The notes beneath the pieces are model-generated. The model saw only the letters and a list, made by a program, of their open reading frames with translations, was not told the DNA's origin and ran no database searches. Source: Eubacteriaceae bacterium (lineage in GTDB: Bacteria > Bacillota > Clostridia > Eubacteriales > Anaerofustaceae). From it: a DNA stretch of 64,000 bases. Positions 1 through 20,550 of the stretch are shown in pieces. The position numbers were made by a program, and so were the translations under genes. Location: contig WRIY01000010.1 of assembly GCA_009782515.1 (NCBI GenBank), positions 1-64,000 of the forward strand. Reading direction: 5' to 3'. Numbering within the stretch: the stretch's first letter is position 1; every line of letters starts with the position of its first letter.

Positions 1-684
1 AAATTTCATGTACTCACAACCAGGAAAAGAGGAATTTTTTACCTTAATGCTTACGAAACCCTTCCCTCCCCGCTATCAAAAGAAGAAGAAAAGCACTACA
101 TTTCACAGCTTGACACCCAAGAGAGCTTTGCAGCGCGCCAGGTTCTTATTGAGCGCAACTTAAGGCTTGTTGTTTATATTGCAAGAAAGTTTGAGACCAA
201 CCCCTCTGTCCTGGAAGACCTCATCTCGATAGGCACAATAGGCCTGATAAAAAGCGTTAACACCTACCGCGCAGACAAAAACATAAAGCTTGCAACATAT
301 GCTTCAAAATGCATTGAGAATGAAATACTAATGCATCTTCGCAAAGCCGGAAAACAGAGAGTTGAGGTTTCCCTTGATGAGCCTCTGAACATGGATTGGG
401 ACGGCAATGAGCTTCTGCTTGGCGATATAATATCAACTGATGACAATCCTGTGATGAGCGGCATAGAAAAGGAAAGCGAGCTGGCGATCCTTAAAGAAGC
501 TATACTAAAGCTCAAAGGCCAAGAGCAAAATATAATTAACCTGCGCTTTGGGGTTAACGGCGAGTCGCGCAAAACCCAAAAGGAAGTAGCTGAAATGATG
601 TCTATTTCGCAATCTTACATATCCAGGCTTGAAAAGCGCATTGTAAAGGTGCTCAAAAAAGAAATATTGAAAATGAGCCGCTAG
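1..684 (+). CDS. sigE: Sporulation sigma factor sigma-E, 5' end outside the window
   Basis: RNA polymerase sigma factor that directs early mother-cell transcription during sporulation. The reading frame is open from base 1, so the start and the pro-sequence lie to the left. Region 2 ([47 protein letters not shown]) and region 4 ([19 protein letters not shown] helix-turn-helix) are complete. The stretch [19 protein letters not shown] is typical of sigma-E rather than sigma-K or sigma-G. In Bacilli and Clostridia the protease gene spoIIGA usually precedes sigE and sigG usually follows; here the next genes are sortases. No frameshift was seen. Confidence 0.9.
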
Positions 685-774
685 CAGCTGCCCCGACGAA
701 AATAAAGTGCCGGCTTAATCATATGTTTCTTATATGATTTTCGACAAACCACTTTATATAGCGATGAACATACG

Positions 775-810
775 CCTCTGCATGGTATAATAGCTATAGT
801 TCAGCAGAGG
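775..810 (+). promoter_or_regulatory. Promoter of the first sortase, flanked by an inverted repeat
   Basis: TATAAT lies at 786-791. It is bracketed by CCTCTGC (775-781) and its exact complement GCAGAGG (804-810). The right arm also provides the AGAGG ribosome site for the ATG at 818. The left arm lies upstream of the expected transcript start, so the dyad is more likely a repressor operator than an RNA hairpin. I see no good -35 box. Confidence 0.5.
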
Positions 811-817
811 TATAGGA

Positions 818-2098
818 ATGGCAGAAAACAAGATTGAACCTAAGCCATACAAGCCAAGAGTATATCGCATAAAGAGCGCTCCTTTTGAAAACCCGTTTTT
901 GGAAAAAACGCAGCTTGTGTACAAAAACAATTTTTATACGCAAGTAAATATGGCTATTAAGGAGCAGCCTATGGCTCCTGTATATACTAATCTGGCATCA
1001 AGGGTTGCCCGCGAAAGCAGCCCGGCTTTTACAGACAGCATTCAAATTAGCTCAAGGCAGCAGAGCTTGCCGCCAAGCCGCACTTCCAATAGAGCCAGCC
1101 AGGCTTCAAAAACCAGGGCGCGCCCGGCGCCGGCGCCTATTGGCAATGATGAAGAAATATCAGGCAGCTTTGATGGCAGGCAAGCCGATGCAACGGAATC
1201 GAAGGGCGCTTTAGGCAGCTTTGCTTCATTTGCGCAGTCTTTGCCAACTGCCAGGGCAAAAACACCCCGCACAAGCACGCGGGCGCCAAAACAGGAAAAA
1301 GCCCCCAAAAGGGCTGCAAAGGCAAAAATGGGCCTTAGAAGCGCTCTGGCGCTGGCTTTGTGCGCCGGGATTTTCATCTTTAGCGGCTACAAGTTTCTAG
1401 AGGAGCTTATTCCCCAAGTCAAAGCTGCCCAGGAGATGAGGGACATACGAAAAATAGTTGATGTTGGCGGCTCTGACATAACCCAAAACCCTATTACTGA
1501 CGTTAAAAGGGAATTGCCTGACTGGGACGGGCTGATGAGCCAAAACAGCGATCTTATCGGCTGGATTTTCCTTGATGGCGCATTGATAAACCATCCGATA
1601 GTTCGCGGAGATGACAACACCCACTACTTAAGCCATACATTCAAAGGCACGTCAAACGGGTCTGGAAGCATTTTTCTCGACTATAGAAACTCAAAGCAGT
1701 TTAGTGATCAAAATACGATAATATATGGCCATTCGATGAAGAACGGAACAATGTTTGGCAAGCTGAAAAACTATAAAGCGCAATCAGTGTACGAAGCTGA
1801 CCCGATAGTGTCTGTGCATACGCCGGACAAAGAATACCATTACCAGATATTTGCAGCTGTTGTTCTTGATGCCCTATATGATTATAGGCAGCCGGAGTAT
1901 GGCAGCTCATTCGAATCTTTTATTAATGGCATACGATCCAAGTCCACAATAACATCATCAGCGAGCGTTGGCCCCAATGACAAAATACTGACGCTTTCAA
2001 CATGCTCAACCACTATCGACAACGGCAGGTTTGTCGTATTCGCAGTGCTGCTCAACCCGGACGGAGAGCCTTTTGACCTGTCGTCGGTAAGGCCATAA
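818..2098 (+). CDS. Class B-like sortase 1, with long disordered cytoplasmic tail
   Basis: Membrane-anchored cysteine transpeptidase that would link sorted proteins to the cell wall. Residues 12-28 hold the N-terminal signature RVYRIKSAPFENPF. A 140-residue tail rich in Ala, Pro, Ser and basic residues follows, then one membrane helix (about 172-192) and an extracellular sortase domain. Catalytic residues are His305 (IIYGHSMKNGTMF), Cys396 (TLSTC) and Arg404. At 426 residues it is over 100 longer than its four neighbours because of the tail. It has its own promoter and is separated from sortase 2 by a terminator. The substrate motif cannot be told from the enzyme, and no LPxTG or NPxTN protein lies in this window. 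Confidence 0.88.
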   Translation: MAENKIEPKPYKPRVYRIKSAPFENPFLEKTQLVYKNNFYTQVNMAIKEQPMAPVYTNLASRVARESSPAFTDSIQISSRQQSLPPSRTSNRASQASKTRARPAPAPIGNDEEISGSFDGRQADATESKGALGSFASFAQSLPTARAKTPRTSTRAPKQEKAPKRAAKAKMGLRSALALALCAGIFIFSGYKFLEELIPQVKAAQEMRDIRKIVDVGGSDITQNPITDVKRELPDWDGLMSQNSDLIGWIFLDGALINHPIVRGDDNTHYLSHTFKGTSNGSGSIFLDYRNSKQFSDQNTIIYGHSMKNGTMFGKLKNYKAQSVYEADPIVSVHTPDKEYHYQIFAAVVLDALYDYRQPEYGSSFESFINGIRSKSTITSSASVGPNDKILTLSTCSTTIDNGRFVVFAVLLNPDGEPFDLSSVRP

Positions 2099-2132
2099 TA
2101 TAAAAGTTTCAGCTGAATATAAGCATTTTAGC

Positions 2133-2157
2133 AAGGGCTGGCGCAGCCCTTTTTTTA
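2133..2157 (+). terminator. Intrinsic terminator after sortase 1
   Basis: Seven-base stem AAGGGCT/AGCCCTT with a GGCGC loop, followed by a run of T. It separates sortase 1 from the four-gene sortase unit downstream. Confidence 0.8.
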
Positions 2158-2315
2158 TTTTCTGCGCAATAAATGAAAATGAAGATGAAAAACCTAAATA
2201 GTGCGTACTCTGCATTGGCTATGGTATGATTATACATGTAAGCCATATTTTCGGCTATTTCAGCCATGCTAAAAATGATTCATTTGAGATGGAAATAGGC
2301 ATGTCTGCAAGCAGG

Positions 2316-2340
2316 TATAATATGAATACATATGGGATGG
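2316..2340 (+). promoter_or_regulatory. Probable promoter -10 box and ribosome site of sortases 2-5
   Basis: TATAAT occurs at 2316-2321 and GGGATGG at 2334-2340, seven bases before the ATG at 2348. No clear -35 hexamer is visible. The short gaps (37, 36 and 4 nt) between the following genes suggest that sortases 2-5 share this start. Confidence 0.45.
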
Positions 2341-2347
2341 AAAATTT

Positions 2348-3295
2348 ATGGCAAATGAACAGCCAAGCGAGCGCATGGGGCGGGTTTACCGCGTAAAGTC
2401 AGCGCCGTTTGAAAACCCATTCATTGCGTCAGAGAGCGAAACCATTTTTCAAAGCGGGCCAATAGAAGTTTTTCCCGATGGCAGCGAGGCTGATGCAATA
2501 GGCAAAAGGGCCAAAAAGCCAATGAAGCTCATTGAAGCAATCTCCTACTGCCTGGCAATAGTTGTGTTTAGCTTCAACTCTTTCCTCGGCGGTATTGAAG
2601 CCATACAAAAAATAGCCTATACAGACAGCGATAAAACCGCCATCCGTGTTATACAGCTCGAAACAAGCCAAGACGGCATACAGAGCGCCGGCGAGCAAAA
2701 GCGCCAAGCGCCCGATTTCGATGCACTTGAACAAAGCGGCGCTGATATTATAGGCTGGATGCGACTTGAAGAGGTTTATATAGACGATCCTATTGTAAAA
2801 GGCAAAGACAGCGACTACTACTTAAGCCATGCGTACAGGAGCCCGTATAATCCTGCAGGCTCGCTGTTTGCAGACTATCGAGCGGACACGGGCTTTGCGA
2901 GCCAAAATACAGCTATTTATGGCTACAACTTAAAAAATGGCACAATGTTCGCAAAGCTCAAAAAGTACCAAGACCAAAGGATGTACGAAGCGCAGCCAAT
3001 AATCACTATATACATGCCTGGCGGCAAAGTCTACTACTACCATATCTTTGCTGTGGTGCTTGCCGATGCTTCATTTGACTGCACAAAGCCTGAGTATGGC
3101 GATGGCTTTACGAACTTTGTCAACAGCCTGCGAAGGCAGTCAAGGATAGCATCAAACGCTAAAGTAGCATCAAGCGATCGGATTGTGTGCCTGTCTACAT
3201 GCCATGGCGCTAATGCAGATGAGCGCCTGGTTGTAGCAGCTGTTTTGCTTAATCAAGACGGAGAGGAAATTGACATTAGTGGCGTTAAGCCATAA
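2348..3295 (+). CDS. Class B-like sortase 2, catalytic His replaced by Tyr
   Basis: Same layout as the other sortases here: signature RVYRVKSAPFENPF at residues 12-25, membrane helix about 62-84, extracellular sortase domain. The nucleophile Cys285 (CLSTC) and Arg293 are kept. The otherwise invariant catalytic His is Tyr193: AIYGYNLKNGTMF against xIYGHxMxxGTMF in the four neighbours. The codon is TAC at 2924-2926, one base from CAC. The frame is intact and the rest of the domain is well conserved, so it does not look like a decaying pseudogene. It probably lacks normal transpeptidase activity. It may bind substrate or partner another sortase, which is inference. Confidence 0.85.
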   Translation: MANEQPSERMGRVYRVKSAPFENPFIASESETIFQSGPIEVFPDGSEADAIGKRAKKPMKLIEAISYCLAIVVFSFNSFLGGIEAIQKIAYTDSDKTAIRVIQLETSQDGIQSAGEQKRQAPDFDALEQSGADIIGWMRLEEVYIDDPIVKGKDSDYYLSHAYRSPYNPAGSLFADYRADTGFASQNTAIYGYNLKNGTMFAKLKKYQDQRMYEAQPIITIYMPGGKVYYYHIFAVVLADASFDCTKPEYGDGFTNFVNSLRRQSRIASNAKVASSDRIVCLSTCHGANADERLVVAAVLLNQDGEEIDISGVKP

Positions 3296-3332
3296 AGCCA
3301 GCATATAAGCGCTAATAAGGTAATAGGCTTTT

Positions 3333-4280
3333 ATGGAATATAAAAAAGAAATCGTGTGGAAATCCCGGGTCTACCGGGTAAAAACCGCCCCTTTTGACAA
3401 CCCGTTCGATTTGGGCCGAAAGGCAATGGAAAGCAGCGCTGAACAGGCCTCAACAGATGGCAATGCAGCAGAAAGAAAAAGCTCAAATGCGAGAAGGCAG
3501 CAGCGGCCCATGAGACTTTTTGAGGCTGTCTTTTATTGCGCAGCAATAGCCATATTCTCATTTAGCACCTTTCTCGGCGCAATGGAAGTTATTCCAAGAC
3601 TGATATCAAAGAACCGTATAATCAATTTGCGCAATGACGGCAAGCTTGATGAGACATATGAAGTCGAAGAGGCGCTGGGAAGCTACTCGCGCCAAGTGCC
3701 AAACTTTCCTGCACTGCAGGAAAAATGCGCTGATCTTGTAGGCTGGATGTACCTTGAAGCAGTAGGCGTCGATGATCCGATTGTCAGGGGCAAAGACAAC
3801 GACTACTACCTGAACCACTCATATGAAAGCCTTTATGACAAAGCAGGCTCATTTTTTGTAGATTATAGGGCCAAAGCAGACCTCAGCAGCCAGAACACTG
3901 TAATTTACGGCCACAACATGTCCAATGGCACTATGTTCGCCAGCCTCAGAAAATACCTTGAGCAGGAAACATACGAAGCCCAGCCGGTAATATCAATATA
4001 CACGCCTGACAATAAAGTTTATCACTACCAGATCTTTGCTGTAGTTATAGTGGATTCATACTATGACTATATGAGATCAAATTATGGCGAAAATTTTACG
4101 AACTTCATAAACAGAATGCGCAAGCAGTCAAGGATAAGCTCAAGCGCCTCTGTAGGCGCTAGCGATCGGGTGCTATGCCTGTCAACATGCGACAGCGACG
4201 ACTATGACGATCGGCTTGTAGTGATGGCTGTTTTGCTAAACCAGGACGGCAACATCATCAATACTGCGATCAAGCCTTAG
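3333..4280 (+). CDS. Class B-like sortase 3
   Basis: 315-residue membrane-anchored sortase. The N-terminal signature RVYRVKTAPFDNPF is at residues 12-25, the membrane helix at about 62-84, and the C-terminal catalytic domain carries His194 (VIYGHNMSNGTMF), Cys286 (CLSTC) and Arg294. It starts 37 bases after sortase 2, consistent with one transcript. The loop after the catalytic Cys is acidic (DSDDYDD), unlike the neighbours (HGAN, HGRD), which may reflect a different substrate. That last point is inference. Confidence 0.88.
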   Translation: MEYKKEIVWKSRVYRVKTAPFDNPFDLGRKAMESSAEQASTDGNAAERKSSNARRQQRPMRLFEAVFYCAAIAIFSFSTFLGAMEVIPRLISKNRIINLRNDGKLDETYEVEEALGSYSRQVPNFPALQEKCADLVGWMYLEAVGVDDPIVRGKDNDYYLNHSYESLYDKAGSFFVDYRAKADLSSQNTVIYGHNMSNGTMFASLRKYLEQETYEAQPVISIYTPDNKVYHYQIFAVVIVDSYYDYMRSNYGENFTNFINRMRKQSRISSSASVGASDRVLCLSTCDSDDYDDRLVVMAVLLNQDGNIINTAIKP

Positions 4281-4316
4281 AGCGCTTTCAAACAAGCAAT
4301 AGGGATGGAGCTATAA

Positions 4317-5273
4317 ATGGCAGAAAATTTAAACCAAATGCCTAACCAGCGCAAAACGCGCGTTTACAGGGTAAAGAGTGCACCTTTTGAGAACCCGTTC
4401 AGGGCAGATATGCTTGCTGCAGCTGAAGCTGTGCCAACTGCCGAAGTTTCTAAGCGCAAAAGGCGCGAAAAGAGCAAGGCAAAAAAAGCTAAGCGCCCTA
4501 TGAGGGTTTATGAAGCCGTTGTTTATAGCATGTGCATTGTTGCCTTTAGCTTTGGGCTTTTCGGCATCGCAATGGAGGTTATTCCGCGCTACAAGCAAAT
4601 TCAGGAAATCAGGGATATTCGTTTGATAGCTGTAACTTCAGAAGCCGGCTCATCAAACAGCATTCAGAATGGCAGCCGTAAAGAGCTTCCTGATTTCACT
4701 GTTCTTAAAGAGATAAACGCTGATGTTGTTGGATGGCTCAGCCTTGATATAGTTGAAGTCTTTGATCCCGTCGTTCAGGGCAAGGACAATGATTACTACC
4801 TTAACCATTCATTCAAAGGAAATTACAATTCAGCCGGCGCGCTGTATATGGACGCAAAAGCAAACGGAATGTTCACAGACCAAAATACTGTGATTTACGG
4901 GCACAATATGAAGGATGGGACGATGTTTGCCAAGCTAAAAAGATACCTGGACCAAGAAACCTATGATGCCCAACCGATTATTACTGTTTATACCCCGGGC
5001 GGAAAGGTGTTTTATTACCATATTTTTGCAGTAGTTGTGCTAGATCCTTACGATAAGTACAGAGAGCCCAACTATAACAGCAACTTTGCTAACTTCATAA
5101 GCAGAATTAGCAGGCTGTCTGCAATAAAATCAAGCGCAAGCGCTTCTGCCAGCGATCGCTTGCTGTGCTTGTCAACATGCCATGGCCGAGACAGCGAAGA
5201 GCGGCTTGCTGTGTTTGCAGTCTTGCTCAACCCGGACGGGGCCGACATTGACATAACTGGCATAAAACCATAA
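4317..5273 (+). CDS. Class B-like sortase 4
   Basis: 318-residue membrane-anchored sortase with N-terminal signature RVYRVKSAPFENPF (residues 15-28), a very basic Lys/Arg stretch at 46-60 before the membrane helix (about 64-86), and the catalytic triad His196 (VIYGHNMKDGTMF), Cys288 (CLSTC) and Arg296. It lies 36 bases after sortase 3 and four bases before sortase 5, so it is very probably cotranscribed with both. It is most like sortases 2 and 3, as expected from local gene duplication. Confidence 0.88.
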   Translation: MAENLNQMPNQRKTRVYRVKSAPFENPFRADMLAAAEAVPTAEVSKRKRREKSKAKKAKRPMRVYEAVVYSMCIVAFSFGLFGIAMEVIPRYKQIQEIRDIRLIAVTSEAGSSNSIQNGSRKELPDFTVLKEINADVVGWLSLDIVEVFDPVVQGKDNDYYLNHSFKGNYNSAGALYMDAKANGMFTDQNTVIYGHNMKDGTMFAKLKRYLDQETYDAQPIITVYTPGGKVFYYHIFAVVVLDPYDKYREPNYNSNFANFISRISRLSAIKSSASASASDRLLCLSTCHGRDSEERLAVFAVLLNPDGADIDITGIKP

Positions 5274-5277
5274 CGCT

Positions 5278-6165
5278 ATGCACAGCCAATATAAGCCAAA
5301 CATCCAATACCGCATAAAGAATGCCCAACCAGGCCACAGCCAGGCTTCATTTGCCGGCGCAGTATCGAAGAGAAAAAAAAAGAAGCGCAGCTTTTTGCTA
5401 AAGGCTGCTTTTTTCATTAGCCTGGCGCTCTTTGCATCAAGCATTTTCCTGTTCTCAAATGAATTGCTGCAATATCTCAGCTCAGCAGCTGAGCTGACGC
5501 AGATCAGGCAGTTTACGATTGACAGCACGAGCCTGCCCTATAGCCAGGCTGAAAGCATAAGCAAAAGGCAGCTGCCTGACTTTAGCGCCCTTTGCTCGAT
5601 AAACAGTGAGGCTGTCGGATGGATATACATTGACGGGGCTAATGTTGACCATCCGATCGTGCAGGCATCTGACAACGAATACTACTTAAGCCACACTTTT
5701 CTTAAAAATGAGAATGCGTCAGGCTGCCTGTTTATAGACTTCAGAAACAGCCCTGGCTTTAGTGACCAAAACACTGTTGTCTATGGCCATAGAATGTCCA
5801 ATGGAACAATGTTTTCACGGCTGCTTGATTTTCGCTCGCAGGAAAAATACATGCAGTGCCCGTTTGTTTCAGTTTACACAGCTGGCGGCAAAGCATACCA
5901 CTACCAAATCTTTGCCTGCCTGGCGCTTGAGGAAGACTATGACTACAGAAGCCCAAGCTATGGGGAAAGCTTTGCTTCGCTAATATCTGAGCTAAGGGAA
6001 AGCTCAGATATTAGCTCCAGCGCAAAAGTAGATGAATCGGACAGGATCATAACGCTTTCAACCTGCTCGCCTGACAGCGTGCTAAAGGGAGGGCGATATG
6101 CTGTATTTGCTGTATTGCTCAACAAGGGGGGCAACGATATTGACCTAAGCAAGATACAGCCTTAG
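5278..6165 (+). CDS. Class B-like sortase 5, divergent N-terminus
   Basis: 295-residue sortase, the most divergent of the five. The N-terminal signature is reduced to IQYRIKNAQP and lacks APFxNPF. A poly-basic KRKKKKR stretch precedes the membrane helix (about 39-60). Catalytic residues are His171 (VVYGHRMSNGTMF), Cys263 (TLSTC) and Arg273. The TLSTC motif and the post-Cys loop resemble sortase 1 more than sortases 2-4. No ribosome site is visible in the four-base gap after sortase 4, so translation is probably coupled. It ends eight bases from the convergent FtsX-like gene. Confidence 0.86.
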   Translation: MHSQYKPNIQYRIKNAQPGHSQASFAGAVSKRKKKKRSFLLKAAFFISLALFASSIFLFSNELLQYLSSAAELTQIRQFTIDSTSLPYSQAESISKRQLPDFSALCSINSEAVGWIYIDGANVDHPIVQASDNEYYLSHTFLKNENASGCLFIDFRNSPGFSDQNTVVYGHRMSNGTMFSRLLDFRSQEKYMQCPFVSVYTAGGKAYHYQIFACLALEEDYDYRSPSYGESFASLISELRESSDISSSAKVDESDRIITLSTCSPDSVLKGGRYAVFAVLLNKGGNDIDLSKIQP

Positions 6166-6173
6166 AGCTTTTG

Positions 6174-7034
6174 TCATAACACATCAGCGTATGATGGAGT
6201 GGCGAGCTTAACTTTGGCGGCAGCAAGAAATAAAAGCATAACGGTGGTTGCGCTTGCAGCAGCATAAGGCCAGAAGCCCTTTAATGAATCAAGCTGCATA
6301 AACGAATAGTAAATATATGATGAGCAGTTGGCAGCGCCCAGATAATACACATACAGGCTATGGGCAGCAGCCAGCGAGAGTGCAAGCGCAAGCAGGGCAA
6401 TAGCTGCCCTCTCAAAAGCAAACGGCAGCCTTATCAGCTTTTCCGGCACTCCGAAAGATCCAAGAATTTTTATGTCCAGCTCCCTGGCTTTTATCGAGGC
6501 CCGGCATTTGCGCTTGGCCATTGCAGAAGCATAAACAACCAGCGCTATGCTGGCAGCGGGCAGAACAAAGAGCGCAAGCGGGCACCATATATTTGCCTTG
6601 TCATAAAAATAGTTTCCCAAGCCTGCGCTGCTCACATTATCAAGGCTTTTTGCAAATGCGCAAAAAGCATCAACTCCAATGCTGCCGTCAAGGCAGGCTT
6701 TCAAGGCAAAGGAAAAGGTGTTGGGCATCAGGCCGCTGTTGGGATATGCCTTGCACATCGCCTCATATGCCTCTTCTGATGTAACGCTTTTACAGCTTTT
6801 TATATAATCTGCCTTTGAAATCTGGGCATATGCCACTGCATGCTGCTCTTCAGCCTCAAAACAGAGCACTGCAATATTTAGCATAGACGCTCTTTTAGCC
6901 TCAAGCCATATAAGCGACAAACCTATGCAATAGTAAATAAGCAGCAAAGCCAGTGCCAGCGACAGCACAGCCCTTACGCCGTAATGGCTTCCTTCTGCAG
7001 CGTTTTTTGCCGCTTCAACAGCGCTATAGCGCAA
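6174..7034 (-). CDS. ftsX: FtsX-like cell-division permease
   Basis: Integral membrane protein of the FtsX family, which with FtsE controls cell-wall hydrolases at the division site or lateral wall. The 286 residues give the expected order: N-terminal MRYSAVEA (FtsX-type MRYFxREA), helix 1 about 22-45, an extracellular domain with the ISKADYIKSCKSVTSEEAYE region, and helices at about 150-172, 207-230 and 258-280. The start is TTG, eight bases after the FtsE-like stop, with a GGGGAG site. Function depends on a partner whose ATPase motifs are all lost (see the neighbouring gene), so the pair may not work by ATP hydrolysis. Confidence 0.72.
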   Translation of the reverse strand: MRYSAVEAAKNAAEGSHYGVRAVLSLALALLLIYYCIGLSLIWLEAKRASMLNIAVLCFEAEEQHAVAYAQISKADYIKSCKSVTSEEAYEAMCKAYPNSGLMPNTFSFALKACLDGSIGVDAFCAFAKSLDNVSSAGLGNYFYDKANIWCPLALFVLPAASIALVVYASAMAKRKCRASIKARELDIKILGSFGVPEKLIRLPFAFERAAIALLALALSLAAAHSLYVYYLGAANCSSYIYYSFMQLDSLKGFWPYAAASATTVMLLFLAAAKVKLATPSYADVL

Positions 7035-7042
7035 GCTCTCCC

Positions 7043-7723
7043 CTACCCCATCGCCCTGGCGCTTCTTTCCGGCTTGTGCCTGAGCGAGCCGTTTTCAATG
7101 TAGAGTATTCGCTTGTCTAAGCTTTTGATGATGCTTGGGGTGTCTACAGTGGCCAGCACGCACACTCCATAATACAAGTTAATGTCAAAGAGCAGCCGAA
7201 TGATCTCCATTGAATCCACAATCTCCAGTGAGCCCATCAGGTTTGAAGCCAAAACTGCCTGCGGCGAGCTTATGACTGCCCTTGCAATGACAGCCTTTCG
7301 CTCCTCCAGCGCGCTCAGCTCTGAAGGGCATTTTCTTGCTTTGCTGCGAAGCCCTGAAATGCTGAGCACATCCGAAATGCGATCCTTTGCTTGCTGTGCC
7401 TGGCTTGTAACGAGCGCCGGCATCAATAAGTTTTCGTATAATGTCCTATTTGGAACAAGGCCAATGCGATCTGATGCTATTGCGAATTTTTTCAGGTAGG
7501 CTGCCTTCTCTTTGCCGCTTAGCTTTCTGGCATCTATGCCATCAAGCTCTACAGTTCCTTCGCGGTCAATTTCAGGCATTACCAAAAGCTTGAGAATAGC
7601 GTTCGCTTCGCAAAGCCGCTCAGAGCAGATGAAGGCAAACTCTGAATTGAGCAGCTCAAACGAGATATTTCTTAAAAAAAATTCGTAGCTATAGCTAGTT
7701 GTCACACCGCTGAATTCTATCAT
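7043..7723 (-). CDS. FtsE-like protein without ATPase motifs
   Basis: The whole length aligns with FtsE: MIEFSGV start, VPNRTLYENL, VAIARA-like VIARAV, and the C-terminal ILYIENGSL. Yet each nucleotide-binding motif is changed. Walker A GPSGAGKST is SERLCEANA at residues 34-42 (Lys to Ala). The Q-loop Gln is Asp. LSGGEQQR is LSALEERK. Walker B ADEPTGNLD is ASNLMGSLE (Asp to Ser, Glu to Asn). The H-loop THD is TVD. There is no stop or frameshift in 226 residues. The ATG at 7723 follows GAGGG with five bases. ATP hydrolysis looks impossible; a structural partner for the FtsX-like protein is the likeliest role, by inference. Confidence 0.78.
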   Translation of the reverse strand: MIEFSGVTTSYSYEFFLRNISFELLNSEFAFICSERLCEANAILKLLVMPEIDREGTVELDGIDARKLSGKEKAAYLKKFAIASDRIGLVPNRTLYENLLMPALVTSQAQQAKDRISDVLSISGLRSKARKCPSELSALEERKAVIARAVISSPQAVLASNLMGSLEIVDSMEIIRLLFDINLYYGVCVLATVDTPSIIKSLDKRILYIENGSLRHKPERSARAMG

Positions 7724-7936
7724 GGCAACCCTCAAAAATAATCAACACATATTCTCTATCTTATCAAATTTTGGTATGTGATAACAGTTTTAAAAGAGCT
7801 TTGTTTCCAACAGCATAAATACACTTTTTTCTACAAAATATTAAAGGCGCCAATCTGGCAAGTAAAAAATAATAACCGAATTAATGTATATTTATTGCTA
7901 GGTTTGGAAATGCTATCTAAAAAAAGGAGCATTTAT

Positions 7937-8398
7937 ATGGAACATTCAAATATCCGCTGCAACGTTAAAGATTGCCAGCACTATGATCGCGACAATTCCT
8001 GCACTCTAAGTTCAATAACTATTGGGGGCAGTGGCTCGAGCCAATCGGAGCCGGATTGCAAATCATTTGAGCACAAAAGCGGTTCGATGCAGTCAAGCTC
8101 AAGATCTTCAAGCCTTGGCTCCTCAAGCTCAAGCTCTTCGGGATCAAGCTATTCATCAGGCTCCAGCAGCTCATTCGGCTCTGGATCAAGCTCATACGGA
8201 TCAGGCTCTTCGAGCTCAGGATCACAGGGATCCGGCTCAAAATCGTATGGCTCAGGCTCAGGCTCATCAGGCTCAGGCTCATCAGGGTCAAGCTCATCAG
8301 GGTCAAGCTCTTCCGGGTCAAGCTCTTCCGGAACAGGCTCATCAAGCTCAAGCTATTCGCCATCTTCCAAATCAGAAAAGAAGCCGAAGAGCTACTAG
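7937..8398 (+). CDS. DUF1540 domain protein with Ser/Gly-rich repeat tail
   Basis: 153 residues. The first 45 match DUF1540, a small Cys-rich domain common in Clostridia (IRCNVKDCQHYDRDNSC, then EPDCKSFEH), with four spaced Cys likely to bind a metal. The remaining 100 residues are almost only Ser and Gly with some Tyr and a basic end (KSEKKPKSY). The ATG at 7937 follows AAAAGGAGC with the right spacing; an in-frame upstream extension to 7778 has no ribosome site. DUF1540 proteins have no firm function, although some occur in spores. The tail resembles flexible spacers or coat-like low-complexity proteins. Confidence 0.75.
   Translation: MEHSNIRCNVKDCQHYDRDNSCTLSSITIGGSGSSQSEPDCKSFEHKSGSMQSSSRSSSLGSSSSSSSGSSYSSGSSSSFGSGSSSYGSGSSSSGSQGSGSKSYGSGSGSSGSGSSGSSSSGSSSSGSSSSGTGSSSSSYSPSSKSEKKPKSY
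8264..8353 (+). repeat. Six 15-nt tandem repeats encoding SSGSS-type units
   Basis: Six head-to-tail 15-base units of the form TCATCAGGGTCAAGC, coding for five residues each. Units 2 and 3 are identical; units 4 and 5 share a TCTTCC variant. Less regular copies extend upstream to about 8100. This is typical of slippage-driven growth of a coding repeat. Confidence 0.8.
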
Positions 8399-8411
8399 AA
8401 ATTGTGCGTGC

Positions 8412-8442
8412 AAAAAACAGCTTGACATTCAGGCTGTTTTTT
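8412..8442 (+). terminator. Intrinsic terminator of the DUF1540 gene
   Basis: Ten-base stem AAAAAACAGC/GCTGTTTTTT with an 11-base loop. The A-rich 5' arm means it could work in both directions. The loop contains TTGACA (8422-8427), the probable -35 box of the infC operon. Confidence 0.75.
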
Positions 8443-8450
8443 GCTATTCT
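8422..8450 (+). promoter_or_regulatory. Probable infC operon promoter inside the terminator
   Basis: A perfect -35 TTGACA (8422-8427) is separated by 17 bases from TATTCT (8445-8450), which matches four of six -10 positions. This would start transcription near 8457 and give a leader of about 155 bases before infC. Confidence 0.55.
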
Positions 8451-8612
8451 GGCATACAGCAAAGAAGAAGGTTGCTTCTCACCCTACGGCTAGCGCCCAT
8501 GGGTTAATAAGGCTTCGTGATTATTTTTAATTTTAGAAGATTATTTGAGTTGCAATTACAGCAGCTCATTTTTTATGGCAGTTCTCTCGCTCTAAAAATA
8601 CGGAGGTGACTT
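8451..8612 (+). promoter_or_regulatory. infC-rpmI-rplT leader with attenuator
   Basis: The leader contains GAAGAAGGTTGCTTC and other short dyads, then a seven-base stem GAGTTGC/GCAGCTC (8548-8554 with 8562-8568, one G-T pair) followed by ATTTTTT, a good intrinsic terminator before the infC ribosome site. In Bacillus the same operon is repressed by ribosomal protein L20 through a leader terminator (L20 leader). The position and layout suggest the same logic here. I did not match the Rfam consensus base by base. Confidence 0.5.
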
Positions 8613-9128
8613 ATAAAAGAGTTTCAGATTAACGGACAGATTCGTGACAAGGAATTGCGGGTGATCGATGAAAACGGCCAGATGCTTGGCGTTATGCCAC
8701 TTGCGGAAGCTATGGGCTTAGCCCAGGAAAAGGAGCTAGACTTAGTTAAGGTTTCTCCCGAAGCAAAGCCGCCAGTATGCAAAATAATGGATTATGGCAA
8801 GTTTCGCTATGAGCAAAATAGAAGAAAGAAAGACACAAAGAAGAACCAGAAGGTTGTTACGATTAAGGAAGTCCGTACCTCTGTGCGCGTTCAAGACCAT
8901 GATTTGCAGGTAAAAGTTAAAAACATACAGAAATTCATCTCAGAAGGCGACAAAGTAAAAGTTTCTGTTCGCTTTAGGGGAAGAGAGATGGTCTACATCG
9001 AAAAGGGCAAAGACCTTCTATTGCGCATCAAGGATATGGTTGGCGAAGACTGCATCATAGAAAAGGCTCCAAAAGCAGAAGGGCGAAACTATGTGATGTA
9101 CCTAGCCCCCAAAAAACAGCAAAGCTAG
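8613..9128 (+). CDS. infC: Translation initiation factor IF-3, probable AUA start
   Basis: IF-3 binds the 30S subunit, keeps subunits apart and rejects non-AUG starts. The conserved N-terminus INGQIRDKELRVID begins upstream of any ATG, GTG or TTG; the first such codon (TTG 8655) would cut off part of it. An in-frame stop lies at 8607-8609. GGAGG at 8602-8606 is six bases before ATA at 8613, so ATA is the best start. ATT at 8628 is too far away. This gives 171 residues, normal for the family. In E. coli infC uses AUU and IF-3 represses itself through it, and AUA would allow the same control. Confidence 0.85.
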   Translation: MKEFQINGQIRDKELRVIDENGQMLGVMPLAEAMGLAQEKELDLVKVSPEAKPPVCKIMDYGKFRYEQNRRKKDTKKNQKVVTIKEVRTSVRVQDHDLQVKVKNIQKFISEGDKVKVSVRFRGREMVYIEKGKDLLLRIKDMVGEDCIIEKAPKAEGRNYVMYLAPKKQQS

Positions 9129-9149
9129 AGACAGTGGAGGAATTAGCTC

Positions 9150-9350
9150 ATGCCTAAAATGAAATCGCATCGAGGCGCTTCAAAACGGTTTCGAGTAAAG
9201 AAATCAGGCATCATTAAAAGATCAAGCGCTTACAAAAACCACATGCTAAACAAAAAAGCGCAAAAAAGAAAAAGAAGGCTTCGCAAAGGCAGCGTGCTCT
9301 CAAAGCCTGACGCAAAGAGGCTCAGATTTATTATAGCTAACAAAAAGTAG
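9150..9350 (+). CDS. rpmI: 50S ribosomal protein L35
   Basis: 66-residue, highly basic ribosomal protein in the standard infC-rpmI-rplT order. The start [16 protein letters not shown] and the motif [16 protein letters not shown] are typical of L35. A GGAGG site precedes the ATG. It is 21 bases after infC and 9 before rplT. Confidence 0.97.
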
Positions 9351-9359
9351 GAGGCGGCA

Positions 9360-9716
9360 ATGGCTAGAGTAAAAAGGGGAACAACCAAGAAAAGAAGGCA
9401 CAAGAAAATCCTAAAATTGGCCAAAGGCTACTACGGCGCCAGATCGCGTTTGTACCGACCGGCAAACGAAGCTGTAATGAGGGCTTTAAGGAGCCAGTAT
9501 ATAGGAAGAAAACAGCGCAAGAGAGATATGCGCTCTTTATGGATAGCGAGAATTAACGCAGCTGCCCGCCTTAATGACATCAGCTATTCAAGGCTGATAG
9601 ACGGGCTCAAAAAATCAGGAATTGAAATAGACAGAAAAATACTCGCTGACGTTGCAATGAACGATGCTGTGTCGTTTGCAAAGCTTGCAGATACGGCAAA
9701 AGCAGCCTTAAGCTAA
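9360..9716 (+). CDS. rplT: 50S ribosomal protein L20
   Basis: 118 residues, standard length. [29 protein letters not shown] and the central [10 protein letters not shown] are the usual L20 sequences. It binds 23S rRNA early in 50S assembly and, in Bacillus, represses its own operon through the leader. A GGAGG site precedes the start. A terminator follows directly. Confidence 0.97.
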
Positions 9717-9722
9717 TAAAAC

Positions 9723-9747
9723 AAGGCCCGGCAAAGGCCTTTTTTTA
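9723..9747 (+). terminator. Terminator of the infC-rpmI-rplT operon
   Basis: Stem AAGGCC/GGCCTT with a seven-base loop followed by seven T. Confidence 0.85.
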
Positions 9748-9752
9748 ATGCA

Positions 9753-9867
9753 ATCCGCAAGAATTCCCCCGCTTCAAAAGCCAAAGTCGTTAAGCAGCGA
9801 GATGAATTGCGGTTATTTCGAAACATTGGCGCACACCACAAGCGCGGAGTTCGCTGCGAAAGCGGTG
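9753..9867 (+). repeat. IS200/IS605-related 115-nt structured repeat, copy A
   Basis: Begins ATCCGCAAGAATTCCCCCGC and ends GCGAAAGCGGTG. Its reverse complement recurs at 30548-30670 with long identical blocks (TTATTTCGAAACATTGGCGCAC; CCGCAAGAATTCCCCCGCTT). The first half can fold: CCGCAAGAATTC against GAATTGCGG. Its ends resemble the right-end hairpin of the adjacent element (11436-11486). It lies between rplT and the tnpA remnant, where the element's left end would be. Confidence 0.7.
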
Positions 9868-9997
9868 TAAAAGCGGCTGCAGAGCGCGCCGCCGCTGTTT
9901 CTCTTTTCTTTTCTGTATAAACATGGTATAATTTAGCATAATATAGCATAAAAGGCTAAATATTGACGATACTAGAGAGCACCAATCATTCAACATA

Positions 9998-10240
9998 ATG
10001 CTGCGCTGCCAGCTTGTTCTTGCCGCAAAGTATATGAAAAAAGCTATAGGCAGCCGGGTTTTCGCAATATTCGAGCGCTTTGCCCCAAATTATACAAACG
10101 CTCTTCTCGAATTGGGCTTCGAAAGCGTTCATATCATCGCTTTATTTGGCGTGCGCCCCAAAACTGAAACCAACAAGCTCGGCGGGGCTCCGCCGGCTGC
10201 TCTGCGCAAGCATATTGAAAGCCAGGGCGAGCGGCAATGA
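9998..10240 (+). pseudogene. tnpA: tnpA remnant, IS200-type Y1 (HUH) transposase
   Basis: An 80-residue frame keeps pieces of the Y1 transposase: KYMKKAIGSRVFAIFERFAPNY, then GFESVHIIALF in place of the HUH motif (usual DHIHILF; first His lost), PKTETNK, then a jump to GGAPPAALRKHIESQGE. About 50 residues between PKTETNK and GGAPP are missing. The catalytic Tyr of the C-terminal YIExQ is His. It ends in ATGA shared with tnpB. Confidence 0.7.
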
Positions 10241-11353
10241 AATGCCATAAAGCCTTCCAGTTCAGAATGCAGCCTAACAAAGAGCAGCAACCCTCATTTC
10301 CAAAACCTTCGAGTGCGCGCGCTTTGTCTATAACAAAATGCTTGCAGACAAGATTGCTTATTATAAGCTGCACGGGGAAATGCTTCGCATCACGCCTGCC
10401 GCGTACAAAGGCGAATTTGAGTGGCTAAGGGAAGTGGACAGCCTGGCCCTTTGCAGCGAGCAGCGGTTTCTTGAAGGGGCCTTCAAAAGGTTTTTTGAAA
10501 GCGCGTCTGTGGGCTTTCCAAAGTTCAAGGCCAAACGCTCTGACAGGCAGTCGTATACAACCAATGCTGTGAACAATAACATCCGAATAGAGGGCAGGCA
10601 TCTTGTGCTCCCCAAGCTTGGCAAGGTTAGGATTCGCCAGCACAGGCAGATTCCTGAAGGCTATAGGCTTAAGTCAGCGGCAGTAAGCCGCGACAGCACA
10701 GGGGCTTTCTATGTTTCCCTTCTGTTCGAGTATGAATCTGAAGCGGCAGAAATGGCTCCAGAAGATATACAAAGCATTATTGGCTTAGACTTCTCAATGC
10801 CAGAGCTGTACATAACAAGCGAAGGCGAGAGCGCTGAATATCCGAAATATTTCAGAGCCTCAGAAAAAAAGATAGCAAAGCTGCAAAGAGAGCTGTCTTT
10901 GAAAGAAAAGGGAAGCAGCAATTACATAAAAAAGAAGGCACAGATAGCCAAAGCCCACAAGAAAGCAGCATGCCAGAGAAAAGATTTTCTGCATAAACGA
11001 TCTAGGAAGATAGCCAATTCCTATGATTGCGCAGCCATAGAGGATTTAAACATGCATGCGATGGCCCAGGCGCTTAACTTTGGCAAATCTGTTTCTGACG
11101 CTGGCTGGGGAATGTTTATACGCTTTCTAAAGTACAAGCTGGAGGATCAGGGAAAGATCCTCGCAAAAGTGGGCAAATGGTACCCGTCAAGCAAAACCTG
11201 CTCTGTATGCGGGGCAGTGAAAAAAGAGCTTGGCCTGTCAGAGCGAACATATGCATGCGAGTGCTGCGGAAGCGTTATGGACAGAGACGCGATGCAGCCA
11301 TCAACATAAAAAACGAGGCTAAGCGAATGCTTGGCATACAAAAAGCAATATAG
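10237..11353 (+). pseudogene. tnpB: tnpB with two frameshifts (RuvC-like RNA-guided nuclease family)
   Basis: The N-terminal MKCHKAFQFRMQPNKEQQ is in one frame. One base is missing near 10291-10293, after which LISKTFECARFVYNKMLADK continues in another frame. The RuvC pieces follow: IIGLDFS (first Asp), AAIEDLN (Glu), the CSVCG...CECCG zinc ribbon and DRD (last Asp). A second one-base deletion near 11290 moves the end AAINIKNEAKRMLGIQKAI into the third frame, with a stop at 11351-11353. Apart from the two deletions all active-site residues are present, so the loss looks fairly recent. Confidence 0.85.
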
Positions 11354-11435
11354 CGCTGGTGAGCCAGCGCCATTGCCGTGGGGCCCACGGCATATGCCCG
11401 CGTATTGGGCCAAGGCTTTTGGCAGAGTATTCGGG

Positions 11436-11486
11436 AAGCCCCCGCTTCTAAGCAAGCGCGAGCGCTTGCGAAAGCGGTGGGAGCAG
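11436..11486 (+). repeat. Right-end hairpin of the IS200/IS605 element
   Basis: CCCCCGCTT pairs with AAGCGGTGGG around an inner perfect stem GCAAGCGC/GCGCTTGC with a GA loop. In this family the 3' end of tnpB and this hairpin form the scaffold of the omega RNA and the transposon end. GCGAAAGCGGTGGGAGCAG is shared exactly with the solo repeat at 30548-30670. The element ends one or two bases before the stop codon of the convergent channel gene. Confidence 0.65.
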
Positions 11487-11487
11487 G

Positions 11488-13566
11488 TCAATGGTTGCTA
11501 AAAACAATAAGCTTGTCTTCACTGCTAAGCTCAACATTTATCTTTGACTGGTCCCCTTCAAAAATGACCATCCCGCCATCGCTTTGAAAATAACCCAGCA
11601 CTAAAGCTTTGTTAGCGCTTGGGGAAGCTTTGTATACCGCTCGAATGAGATCAGCTGCTGTGCAGGCTTCCGGCACTTTGGCAAAGTACTCGCTTGCTTT
11701 CTTTACATAGAGCTCTTTTGTTACCCTTAGCGGCTCATCGTAAGTCAAAATATCATAGTAAAAGTCGAAAAGGGCTTCCTTTTCGCCAATTTGCTCTATG
11801 ATCTTGCTTAGGTAGCGATTGCTCAGCACGATGGTGTTAGCGCTAAAATTGCTGACAATATCATAGTTTTTGGGATTGAGAATCTCAACAACCAGGTTAA
11901 TGGCGCTATGGTCTTTCTCGGGATTGCTTTTTTTGTATTTATTAATGATGTCCTGGACCAATATGAGGTATGTGAGCACATCAGCGTCAATCTCATCGTC
12001 ATCTTCTGTATCATCAGAGAGTATCAGGATGCACCGGCTCTCATTGTTTGCCTGAACAAAATCATTTATTTCACTGCATATTATTGCCTTGTCAAACACA
12101 TCAGCCGCAACAGCCTTCTTCACACAAGGGTAATTGCTGTAGTAATCCTGGCTTTGCAGATACTCTTCGCTGTCAACAGCAACTATTTCCAGAATGTCAG
12201 CGCCGTTATCCTTCCATTCATTATTAAAGGAGTCAAATCCCTCCATAATTGCTTTGTTCTTGCTGTTATGGCCGAGTATGAGCACATGCTTGCCGCATAT
12301 TTTATAGCCCTCATTGATTTCAACTTCAATATCCTGGTTCCACGTTACGCTCTCAGCCTTTTTGATGCTTTGCTCACTGTTTGACATGCAAAAGCAATTT
12401 ACCGCTCCACCCCTGTCGCGGGATACAGCCAGCGGGATGGCCTTAAGGTGGGAGCCTAAAAAGCTTTCAACAAACTCCTCCTCTGTAATCTCGCCTGCAG
12501 CCGAGGCTTCGGAGTGAAATGAGGCTGCCCTATTGGAAAACAGCGCGCTGTAAACATTGTTGAGCTCCGGCATAATTGAAATCTGCGAAAAAATTTGCCC
12601 GAGGATATAGTCGATTGCTACAGGAATGACCTTCAGCTTGCCATCCAGCTCTTTATGGCTAATAATGGTTTCGATCAGCTCCAGAGTCCAGTCGTCTTCC
12701 ACCTCAACAACAACCTGCTGGCTTTGCTCAAGGCCTTCCTCCTGTGTAATCTGTATAACCTGCAGCAAGGTTTTTATCATTACTGCATCGCCCTTTTCCA
12801 TGTGTTCCGGATCGCTCTCGCGCTCGTGGTAGGTATTGGCATTGCTGAGGATAATCACGCTTTTAGCGCTTTCTATTGAAATATTGCTAAGCTGCTTAAG
12901 GGACCATGTATCGCCTTCGCGCACTATAACAGCAAGGTTGCTTTTAAAGCTGTTCTTTTTTCTGTAAATCCAGCGCTTTATAGCCCCCAAATGCTCGCTT
13001 GCTGCCATAACAAGCTCATTTTCTGTTTCAATAGTGTCAGAAAGCCTCTCATCGATATCGCTTAGAACGCCTTCCCTGTCATATTCGACCAAAATTACAA
13101 CTTTTTCTTTTGTATCTTTATAAAGAAGCTCGTTTACAATTTCTGCAGCGCGGGTATTCCAATTTAGAATGACTGTATGGTTTGATATATGCAGCTTTTT
13201 TGAGCTTGAGTCCGCATCTTCAATAAAGCTTGATATAAAGTCTGTCATATATCCGACAACAGCGCCTGTAAAGACTATCATGCCCAATACTACAATAGCA
13301 ACGCAAAACGCAACCAATAAGGCGCCTGTTTGGCCTATGTCTTCCACCACTACTTCCATGTAGCCTGAAATGAGCATGGTGACCGCATAATAAACGCAGC
13401 TCCAATAATCTGTAGCTTCAAGGTATGGCGGAGCCAGCCATGATATTATGAAAGCTGCAATGCTGATAAACAGGATATTTGCTGCCATTATTCCAACCAG
13501 TACAATCAGTTCCGGAGATATGGCTGTTCTTATGCTAATCCACTCTCTGATTTTGCGCATCGACAA
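11488..13566 (-). CDS. CASTOR/POLLUX-like ion channel with tandem RCK (TrkA-N-like) domains
   Basis: 692 residues. Two membrane helices (about 20-43 and 81-106) flank a pore segment (about 57-75, YYAVTMLISGYMEV). Two cytoplasmic nucleotide-binding-like regulatory units follow; the first starts HTVILNWNTRAAEIVNEL, the second HVLILGHNSKNKAIMEGF. The HTVILxW opening and the overall length fit bacterial relatives of the plant CASTOR/POLLUX channels better than classical K+ channels, and the pore lacks a TVGYGD filter. Ion selectivity cannot be read from the sequence. The gene stands alone; its stop codon abuts the end of the IS element. Confidence 0.65.
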   Translation of the reverse strand: MSMRKIREWISIRTAISPELIVLVGIMAANILFISIAAFIISWLAPPYLEATDYWSCVYYAVTMLISGYMEVVVEDIGQTGALLVAFCVAIVVLGMIVFTGAVVGYMTDFISSFIEDADSSSKKLHISNHTVILNWNTRAAEIVNELLYKDTKEKVVILVEYDREGVLSDIDERLSDTIETENELVMAASEHLGAIKRWIYRKKNSFKSNLAVIVREGDTWSLKQLSNISIESAKSVIILSNANTYHERESDPEHMEKGDAVMIKTLLQVIQITQEEGLEQSQQVVVEVEDDWTLELIETIISHKELDGKLKVIPVAIDYILGQIFSQISIMPELNNVYSALFSNRAASFHSEASAAGEITEEEFVESFLGSHLKAIPLAVSRDRGGAVNCFCMSNSEQSIKKAESVTWNQDIEVEINEGYKICGKHVLILGHNSKNKAIMEGFDSFNNEWKDNGADILEIVAVDSEEYLQSQDYYSNYPCVKKAVAADVFDKAIICSEINDFVQANNESRCILILSDDTEDDDEIDADVLTYLILVQDIINKYKKSNPEKDHSAINLVVEILNPKNYDIVSNFSANTIVLSNRYLSKIIEQIGEKEALFDFYYDILTYDEPLRVTKELYVKKASEYFAKVPEACTAADLIRAVYKASPSANKALVLGYFQSDGGMVIFEGDQSKINVELSSEDKLIVFSNH

Positions 13567-13824
13567 CTCCTGTGAGGGTATTCTTTTATGCTAAGAATAG
13601 CATAACCTATCGACAATTTCCCTCAAATTATACTAACTGGCGCTTTTCCATTATTTGTTTATCATAACTTTTTCATGCACGATTTCGCTAAACAAGCAGC
13701 ATAACCGCTCTTGCTTTTGAACACCAGTTCAACAGCAGCATCTGGCATTTATTGCGAATAAGCGCCAAATCATATATACTTGCGCCAAGAATGAAAATTT
13801 TGGCCATAATAAAGGAGGATTAAC

Positions 13825-14787
13825 ATGGCAAACTCAGATCTGCCCTTTGACATTAATCGATTTAAGGTGCATGAAGACCTTTTGCCAACAGTGCTTGTTG
13901 ACACAGGCGTTATACAAGCAGTAAGCAACGGCACATATACTAAAGACTGGGACAACCTGGAATGCGATGACCTGATGCAGGTTGAGCGCTACACGATTGA
14001 AGGATATAACAACCGTGAGCTTCCTATTGTTGCGTTTCGCAGAAAAGAGCTTGCCGGGCAAGAGCTGCCTGGCTATATATACTTGCACGGAGGCGGGTAC
14101 TGGTGCCCATGGGGCAGCGTGTGCCTTAGCATAGCAAAGCGAATTGCTTTGGATGTAGATTGCGCAATACTTGCAGTTGACTTTGCCCTCGCAAAAGAGC
14201 ACCCGTTCCCTGCAAGCGTTGAAGACACCTATATCGCTTCTGAATGGATATGGGAAAACGCGGAGATGCTCAAAATTAACAGGGAAAAAATCGCTATCGC
14301 AGGAGACAGCTCCGGAGCAAATCTTGCAGCAGCTGTATGCCAAATGGCAAGGGACAGGAAAAGCAAAGTAAAATTCTGCCTGCAGGCTCTGATGATCCCC
14401 GGCCTTGACAATACTTTTTCGCAAGAAAGCTACTTGCTGTATGATCAGCCGACGCATCCCGGGATTAATTCGAAAACTGTTGAGTATGTTTTTGAAATTT
14501 ACCTTAGAGACGGGATTCCTGAAGGAATGAAAGCATCGTACGCTGCGCCCCTTCAGGCAGAGTCGTTTGAAAACCTGCCTCCTGCATACATCGAAACTGC
14601 AGACTACGATCCAATGCGCGATGAAGGCATAGACTATGCAACCAACCTCACGCTTGCCGGAGTGCCGGCTACATTGGTGCAGACAAGGCGAACGCCCCAT
14701 ACATGGATGGGGGTTGAGTCCAGCTATACTGAAAAGTACAAAAAATTTCGCAGCGAATTTCTAAAAAAGGTCTTTTACGAAAGCTAA
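13825..14787 (+). CDS. Alpha/beta-hydrolase, hormone-sensitive-lipase-type esterase
   Basis: 320-residue carboxylic ester hydrolase. The oxyanion motif HGGG is at residues 88-91. The triad is Ser162 in GDSSG, Asp262 in YDPMRDEG and His292 in TPHTWMG. There is no signal peptide, so it is cytoplasmic. GGAGG precedes the ATG. It is a single gene; its natural substrate is unknown, and the family accepts short-chain acyl esters. Confidence 0.85.
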   Translation: MANSDLPFDINRFKVHEDLLPTVLVDTGVIQAVSNGTYTKDWDNLECDDLMQVERYTIEGYNNRELPIVAFRRKELAGQELPGYIYLHGGGYWCPWGSVCLSIAKRIALDVDCAILAVDFALAKEHPFPASVEDTYIASEWIWENAEMLKINREKIAIAGDSSGANLAAAVCQMARDRKSKVKFCLQALMIPGLDNTFSQESYLLYDQPTHPGINSKTVEYVFEIYLRDGIPEGMKASYAAPLQAESFENLPPAYIETADYDPMRDEGIDYATNLTLAGVPATLVQTRRTPHTWMGVESSYTEKYKKFRSEFLKKVFYES

Positions 14788-20073: not shown

Positions 20074-20550
20074 ATGAAAATATCTTACTCTTTGGCATAT
20101 ATAGAAGCTGTTAAGGCAATGTGGGCATATCTTAAGCGAATGTACGCGCTTTGGGGATGGGTGCACTTTATTGTCCCGTTGTTCCTTGTGTTCTCTGTCT
20201 GCCAAGTGCCGAGGAACCCTTCCTTTCTAATGAGCCTGTGCCTGGCGTTCTCTGCAGTCGGCTCATTGGCGCTGATTGCTATAGATCTCGTGATGCCGGC
20301 TTATCTGTACAAAAAAGACAGGGGCGAGATTTCAATCGCCCTTGACGATAAGGGCATTCGCATTAAAAACGCAAATCGAAACGATCATGTCGTATGGGAG
20401 TGGTTTCATGAGATATGGGAAAGCCGTGAATTCATATTTTTAGTTGAGCTTCCTATGGCTTACACTGCTGTGCCTAAAAGAAGCCTTGGCAGCTATGACT
20501 TCATGGCAGAGCTGCCGGAGCGCTTTAAGGAGCCAAAAAAACAGGGATAA
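20074..20550 (+). CDS. YcxB-like membrane protein
   Basis: 158 residues with two hydrophobic segments (about 27-45 and 52-75) followed by a soluble C-terminal domain (GIRIKNANRNDHVVWEWFHEIWESREFIFL...AYTAVPKRSL) that resembles the YcxB-like family. Function in this family is unknown. The metallophosphoesterase gene begins five bases after its stop, so the two are probably one transcript. Confidence 0.6.
   Translation: MKISYSLAYIEAVKAMWAYLKRMYALWGWVHFIVPLFLVFSVCQVPRNPSFLMSLCLAFSAVGSLALIAIDLVMPAYLYKKDRGEISIALDDKGIRIKNANRNDHVVWEWFHEIWESREFIFLVELPMAYTAVPKRSLGSYDFMAELPERFKEPKKQG

Follow-up and report, generated by a model that had tools for sequence, protein, structure and literature searches.

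Five tandem class B sortase genes downstream of sigE in a Eubacteriaceae genome: a probable amplification of a family housekeeping sortase

We analyzed a 64,000-nucleotide stretch of Eubacteriaceae bacterium DNA (positions 1 to 64000 at the start of contig WRIY01000010.1, here C10; referred to as the window), which belongs to a genome assembly of 2.67 Mb in 74 contigs (GCA_009782515.1; 94% complete). Right downstream of sigE, the window contains five adjacent open reading frames (ORFs) for class B sortases on the plus strand (818 to 6165), named here srt1 (818 to 2098; 426 amino acids [aa]), srt2 (2348 to 3295; 315 aa), srt3 (3333 to 4280; 315 aa), srt4 (4317 to 5273; 318 aa), and srt5 (5278 to 6165; 295 aa). 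The successive gaps from sigE to srt5 are 133, 249, 37, 36, and 4 bp. All five proteins exceeded the cut-off of the class B model TIGR03064 (153.75 bits; srt1 to srt5, 188, 161, 165, 173, and 175 bits, respectively) as well as that of Pfam Sortase. The ORFs and the class B scores thus agree with the original prediction, made from the sequence of this stretch, that five sortases lie side by side after sigE. Each protein has a single hydrophobic segment ahead of the catalytic domain (i.e., an N-terminal membrane anchor), and srt1 has a long cytosolic/linker N-terminus.

By sequence, srt2 is closest among solved structures to the class B sortases of Listeria, Bacillus anthracis, Clostridioides difficile, Staphylococcus aureus, and Clostridium perfringens. 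An AlphaFold model, made for srt2 only from an alignment of 21 relatives, had a predicted local distance difference test (pLDDT) score of 76.6 (largely 87 to 96 in the barrel), and its first 19 matches in the PDB were all class B sortases (TMt, 0.74 to 0.89). The model accords with the class B fold, in which an extra helix precedes beta-8 of the barrel. The state of the catalytic triad, which is His116-Cys209-Arg217 in C. difficile SrtB (PMC5118464), was scored by alignment columns in 120 class B relatives, a regular expression for the His having missed approximately 25 sequences. The Cys column contained Cys in 118 of the 120 and the Arg column Arg in 116; the rows that deviated were truncated or gapped, apart from one Gln. 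The catalytic His was present in 119 sequences and replaced by Tyr in srt2 alone, where the region reads YGYNLKNGTMF; the codon for this Tyr193 (TAC; 2924 to 2926, plus strand) is one base away from a His codon (CAC). The Cys of the LSTC motif and the Arg are kept in all five proteins, and the full triad is intact in srt1 (YGHSMKNGTMF, TLSTC, and NGR), srt3, srt4, and srt5. The active-site pattern predicted earlier for all five paralogues therefore stands for the Cys motif and the Arg (5/5), but the GH motif is absent from srt2. From their sequences, the four intact copies would be catalytic, while srt2 is predicted to be inactive or nearly so; we refer to it as a class B homologue and do not file it as an active sortase.

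The place occupied by the array is the usual position of a single class B sortase gene in the family. One such gene follows sigE in four relatives (G003, G004, G006, and G010), and three copies do so in G001. With the array sortases as queries, one match per genome was found in these four relatives and in two others (G005 and G009). In G006, the gene order is mraY-murD-ftsW-murG-murA-ftsQ-ftsZ-spoIIGA-sigE-srtB-...-cmk-plsC-ispH (spoIIGA named by Pfam, sigE and srtB by BLAST, and the rest read from the sequences). The window starts within this arrangement, at the 3' part of sigE (1 to 684, plus strand), whose best matches were the SigE models NF006158 and TIGR02835; its scores (324 and 310 bits) were just below the model cut-offs because the contig start removes the 5' end. 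The organism's own spoIIGA stands at the end of another contig (C39) and points outward, which probably places the contig break between this gene and sigE.

Phylogenetically, srt1 to srt5 and the G001 copies formed one clade (support, 97/87), whose sister group (95/95) consisted of the family's single-copy sortases; both together were supported at 99/94. Within the array clade, srt2 to srt4 grouped together (100/99), as did srt1, srt5, and the G001 copies (98/92), so that the tree recovers the division between copies 2 to 4 and copies 1 and 5 that had been proposed from the motifs. Identity among the five catalytic domains was 41 to 57%. As read from this tree, the simplest history would have a duplication precede the split of the two genera, with further copies arising later in the present genome. 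At locus L039 (WRIE01000034.1) of the termite-gut metagenome-assembled genome (MAG) Nt197P3bin28, which evidently corresponds to contig 34 of G001, two of the sortase genes (7725 to 8846 and 9135 to 10232) share 100% nucleotide identity in their 3' part and ~40% in the stalk, owing either to gene conversion in the recent past or to an artefact of assembly.

A conversion tract of this kind would mean that such arrays recombine. Together with the lost His of srt2, this pair in G001 (copies 1 and 2) is consistent with a neutral, decaying amplification, in which copies generated by unequal crossing-over are becoming pseudogenes, srt2 first. We regard such decay as improbable, however. All five reading frames are open, the N-terminal motif described below is kept in all five, few other conserved columns are broken in srt2, and the terminal branches leading to srt2, srt3, and srt4 have similar lengths (0.47, 0.39, and 0.43, respectively). 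Judged by these branches, srt2 diverges no faster than its siblings. Either it is a His-less paralogue that has been maintained, or its His was lost very recently, or the Tyr is a base-call error of the MAG.

The adjacency to sigE had been taken earlier to suggest a role in sporulation or envelope change. If the array were a sporulation system proper, it would be transcribed by sigma-E and would decorate the envelope of the spore or the mother cell, in parallel with the class D sortase of B. anthracis that is linked to sporulation. Five further genera of the family (i.e., G001, G003, G004, G006, and G010) indeed keep the adjacency, and our genome contains both SpoIIGA (at the end of C39) and SpoIVA, by which the organism may well sporulate. 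In G009, however, srtB lies between the same neighbors with divergent ftsEX genes where spoIIGA-sigE would be, and a search of this genome (96% complete) found no SigE-type sigma factor. The arrangement is the same in G005, which has no sigE beside srtB and in which neither SpoIIGA nor SpoIVA was found, although that genome is only 79% complete. Since srtB stays at the locus without SigE in these relatives, the sortase is independent of sigE, and their adjacency reflects an inherited position; sigE is a conserved upstream neighbor and no part of the sortase system.

A sequence scan identified an intrinsic terminator between srt1 and srt2 (2133 to 2151, plus strand; an 8-pair stem followed by a T-run). 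Given this terminator in the 249-bp gap after srt1 and the gaps of 37, 36, and 4 bp within srt2 to srt5, the array probably forms two transcription units (i.e., srt1 and srt2 to srt5). TATAAT -10-like boxes lie 26 nt before the start of srt1 (786 to 791, plus strand; with TG one base upstream, TGGTATAAT) and 26 nt before that of srt2 (2316 to 2321, plus strand), both being consensus matches only. TGnTATAAT also occurs upstream of G001 copies 2 and 3. These boxes are suggestive only, because a scan of the whole window returned 13 sigma-70-like sites against 12.5 expected by chance. The best sigma-E-like pair at srt1 was no better than chance (equalled by 392 of 500 shuffles), and a weak one stands before srt2 (45 of 500). 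On the basis of these sequences, vegetative-type promoters appear likelier for both units. With TATAAT boxes in place of an above-chance sigma-E box at srt1, srtB retained in relatives in which SigE (G009) or SpoIIGA and SpoIVA (G005) were not found, and substrates dispersed over the genome (see below), we consider a sporulation system very unlikely, and the sporulation role of the original prediction was not borne out.

No protein with a sorting signal was found among the proteins of the 64-kb window. The earlier statement that the sortases lack a sorted substrate is correct for the window but does not extend to the genome, where 12 dispersed proteins outside the pilus-like locus described below end in a PxT motif, a hydrophobic stretch, and a basic tail. 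These were identified by reading and with a profile of 19 class B-type signals taken partly from the present genomes; two of the 12 had E values of >0.01 and were accepted by inspection. (Pfam Gram_pos_anchor [PF00746] was rejected as a substrate test, as it missed the signals of the pilus-like locus and matched in unrelated genomes.) Most of the 12 have signal peptides. Their motifs fall into SPxTGD (seven proteins; SPLTGD, SPETGD, SPDTGD, SPSTGD, and SPKTGD in three), NPxT[GLA]D (three; NPNTLD, NPDTAD, and NPQTGD), PPLTGD, and APFTSD. C. difficile SrtB cuts (S/P)PxTG (PMC4155245), and by their sequences the dispersed signals match the type cut by this enzyme. At an E value of ≤0.01, our genome has 13 substrates (3 at the pilus-like locus), G001 has 12, and G003, G004, G006, and G010 have 6, 4, 4, and 3, respectively; the multicopy genomes are thus also richer in substrates, which is a trend and not a test. 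Tiny proteins in L232 of our genome (contig C4, near 20265 to 20372, minus strand; SPLTGD) and L247 of G001 (contig C1, near 193868 to 193969, plus strand; APKTGD) have a signal that almost abuts the signal peptide, which would leave only a few residues to be anchored by sorting.

The five paralogues could instead constitute a dedicated multi-sortase system with different substrates, as proposed in the original prediction, derived from the same housekeeping ancestor, in which they split the substrates (e.g., SPxTGD versus NPxT[AL]D or PPLTGD/APFTSD). The two old groups (srt2 to srt4, and srt1 with srt5), the divergence of their catalytic domains, and the fact that the organism's own substrate motifs are not fully uniform are compatible with such a division. 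No substrate is tied to any paralogue, however, and most of the motifs are within the range of the single C. difficile SrtB, (S/P)PxTG (PMC4155245). The two G001 copies with near-identical catalytic domains but different stalks suggest shared specificity in that genome. The nearly uniform motifs would leave little room for five specificities, and we consider divided substrates unlikely.

Class B sortases do assemble pili, as in streptococcal pilus islands, and 3psq (Spy0129) and 4y4q were among the structural matches of srt2. A pilus assembly cluster is nevertheless highly improbable here: the window contains no pilin or sorting-signal protein, and the organism's pilin-like genes (FctA/DUF7601) are on contig C26, accompanied by their own two sortases, which branch far from the array. 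Three further sorting signals (VPETG, NPETG, and GPKTG) occur at this pilus-like locus. There, a 630-aa protein (L038, 2441 to 4333 of C26 positions 1 to 14000, minus strand) is a fusion of three parts: a pilin domain (FctA; Spy0128-like), a GPKTG signal with its transmembrane segment, and a sortase domain of class B. It is thus a sortase that bears its own potential substrate. Beside it are another class B sortase and a signal-peptidase-like gene, together with two DUF7601 surface proteins whose ends carry NPETG and VPETG; a comparable signal-plus-sortase fusion is present in L044 (3855 to 8741). G002, G008, and G012, which belong to another genus, have a different class B sortase beside fatty-acid synthesis genes; it groups near the C26 fusion (100/98).

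The array sortases share a motif near their start. Alignment revealed RVYR[IV]K[ST]APF[DE]NPF in srt1 (RVYRIKSAPFENPF; 857 to 898), srt2 (RVYRVKSAPFENPF; 2381 to 2422), srt3 (RVYRVKTAPFDNPF; 3366 to 3407), and srt4 (RVYRVKSAPFENPF; 4359 to 4400), a short form (IQYRIK; 5302 to 5319) in srt5, all on the plus strand, and [KS]V[YF]RLK in the three G001 copies. A search of our genome and G001 with the motif region returned exactly these eight array genes and no bearer other than a sortase, and the motif was absent from the single-copy relatives compared. The transmembrane segment starts at residue 40 in srt5, 66 to 68 in srt2 to srt4, and 176 in srt1. Since the linker behind it varies so widely in length, the motif looks constrained, and a natural guess from its sequence and position would be that YR[VIL]K acts as a cytosolic retention or docking signal. 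Taken further, the array could be a functional multi-enzyme assembly, in which YR[VIL]K tethers the paralogues to one partner (e.g., at the division site encoded by neighboring genes) and srt2 is a selected, noncatalyzing pseudo-sortase with affinity for substrates or for the active paralogues; we hold this to be doubtful.

The likely explanation, in our view, is that the housekeeping class B sortase of the family was amplified in tandem in this lineage and that the copies serve dispersed substrates in trans. The five genes would be tandem, partly diverged duplicates at the usual one-copy locus (ftsZ-spoIIGA-sigE-srtB), and each product would have a cytosolic N-terminus, one transmembrane helix, a stalk, and an extracellular class B domain. 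The four intact enzymes are expected to cut C-terminal [S/N/P/A]PxT-(G/A/S/L)-D signals after the Thr, and the cut proteins, secreted and encoded elsewhere, would be joined to peptidoglycan as in C. difficile with SrtB and (S/P)PxTG. Expression would be vegetative and not driven by sigma-E, and the extra copies may serve dosage or a partial division of labor. Several points weigh against this explanation. The catalytic-domain identity of 41 to 57% leaves room for diverged specificity. The trend between substrates and copy number comes from six genomes of different size and from a profile built partly from their own signals. A weak sigma-E-like site upstream of srt2 scored somewhat high (reached by 45 of 500 shuffles). 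Finally, the relatives were searched with class B queries, by which sortases of other classes could have escaped.

One or two class B sortases are common in Clostridia. In a sample of 293 genomes drawn evenly from the class, 120 had a class B match, mostly one each, and our genome had the highest count (seven matches), consistent with the claim that the array is far above the usual number. Among 12 of the richer genomes, which were listed in full, the sole other tandem run of at least three was a triplet in G257; L058, a separate MAG from another collection, has four class B sortases in tandem. No tandem run in this analysis was longer than the present five, but tandem class B arrays do recur. 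A search of the available literature found no account of tandem class B arrays or of a link between a sortase and spoIIGA, and a search of plasmids for signs of transfer returned only distant class B sortases (<60% identity).

Several other features of the window were observed. Convergent FtsX-like (6174 to 7034) and FtsE-like (7043 to 7735) genes on the minus strand lie 8 bp past srt5. The FtsE-like protein has no Walker A motif (SERLCEANA instead of GKSGAGKST), nor does it have the signature motif and Walker B acids that the G005 and G009 counterparts show. Canonical FtsX was not found in our genome or G001 (36 to 40 bits versus a cut-off of 225) and is present in G004, G006, and G009. Is the pair at 6174 to 7735 an ATPase-dead FtsEX-like pair? 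Next comes a protein with a DUF1540 domain and a long tail rich in Gly and Ser (7778 to 8398, plus strand), and an ORF at 10338 to 11309 (plus strand), with C-terminal zinc-finger cysteines, reads as a putative IS200/IS605-type TnpB.

The series of one, three, and five copies at one locus in one family, with larger substrate sets in the multicopy genomes, allows one to ask whether sortases are multiplied for dosage, location, or specificity. Two points are worth following. One is the His-less srt2, a natural pseudo-sortase candidate that keeps the Cys and Arg among intact siblings; the other is the array-only N-terminal motif, a handle on how sortases are held in place in the cell.

Compared with known systems, the array resembles C. 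difficile SrtB (PDB 4ux7/5gyj) in its class B fold and family, in the TLxTC/His/Arg triad (four of the copies), and in having substrates unlinked to the sortase gene with [S/N/P]PxTGD-type signals (PMC4155245). It differs from that single-copy enzyme in its five tandem copies, the Tyr for His in srt2, and the long N-terminal cytosolic extensions with YR[VIL]K. The single-copy sortases of the family (G003, G004, G006, G010, G005, and G009) share the locus and form the sister clade, but have one copy and no YR[VIL]K motif. Nt197P3bin28 shares the tandem arrangement after spoIIGA-sigE, the clade, and the N-terminal motif; it differs in having three copies, all with the His, of which copies 1 and 2 are nearly identical in the catalytic half. 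The four-copy array of L058 is likewise a tandem class B array in Clostridia but forms a separate clade (100/98) and is an independent expansion, and the three copies of G257 scored below the class B cut-off and were left out of the tree. Against these systems, the array stands out by its number of copies and not by its kind: the enzyme family is an ordinary one, and the locus is inherited.

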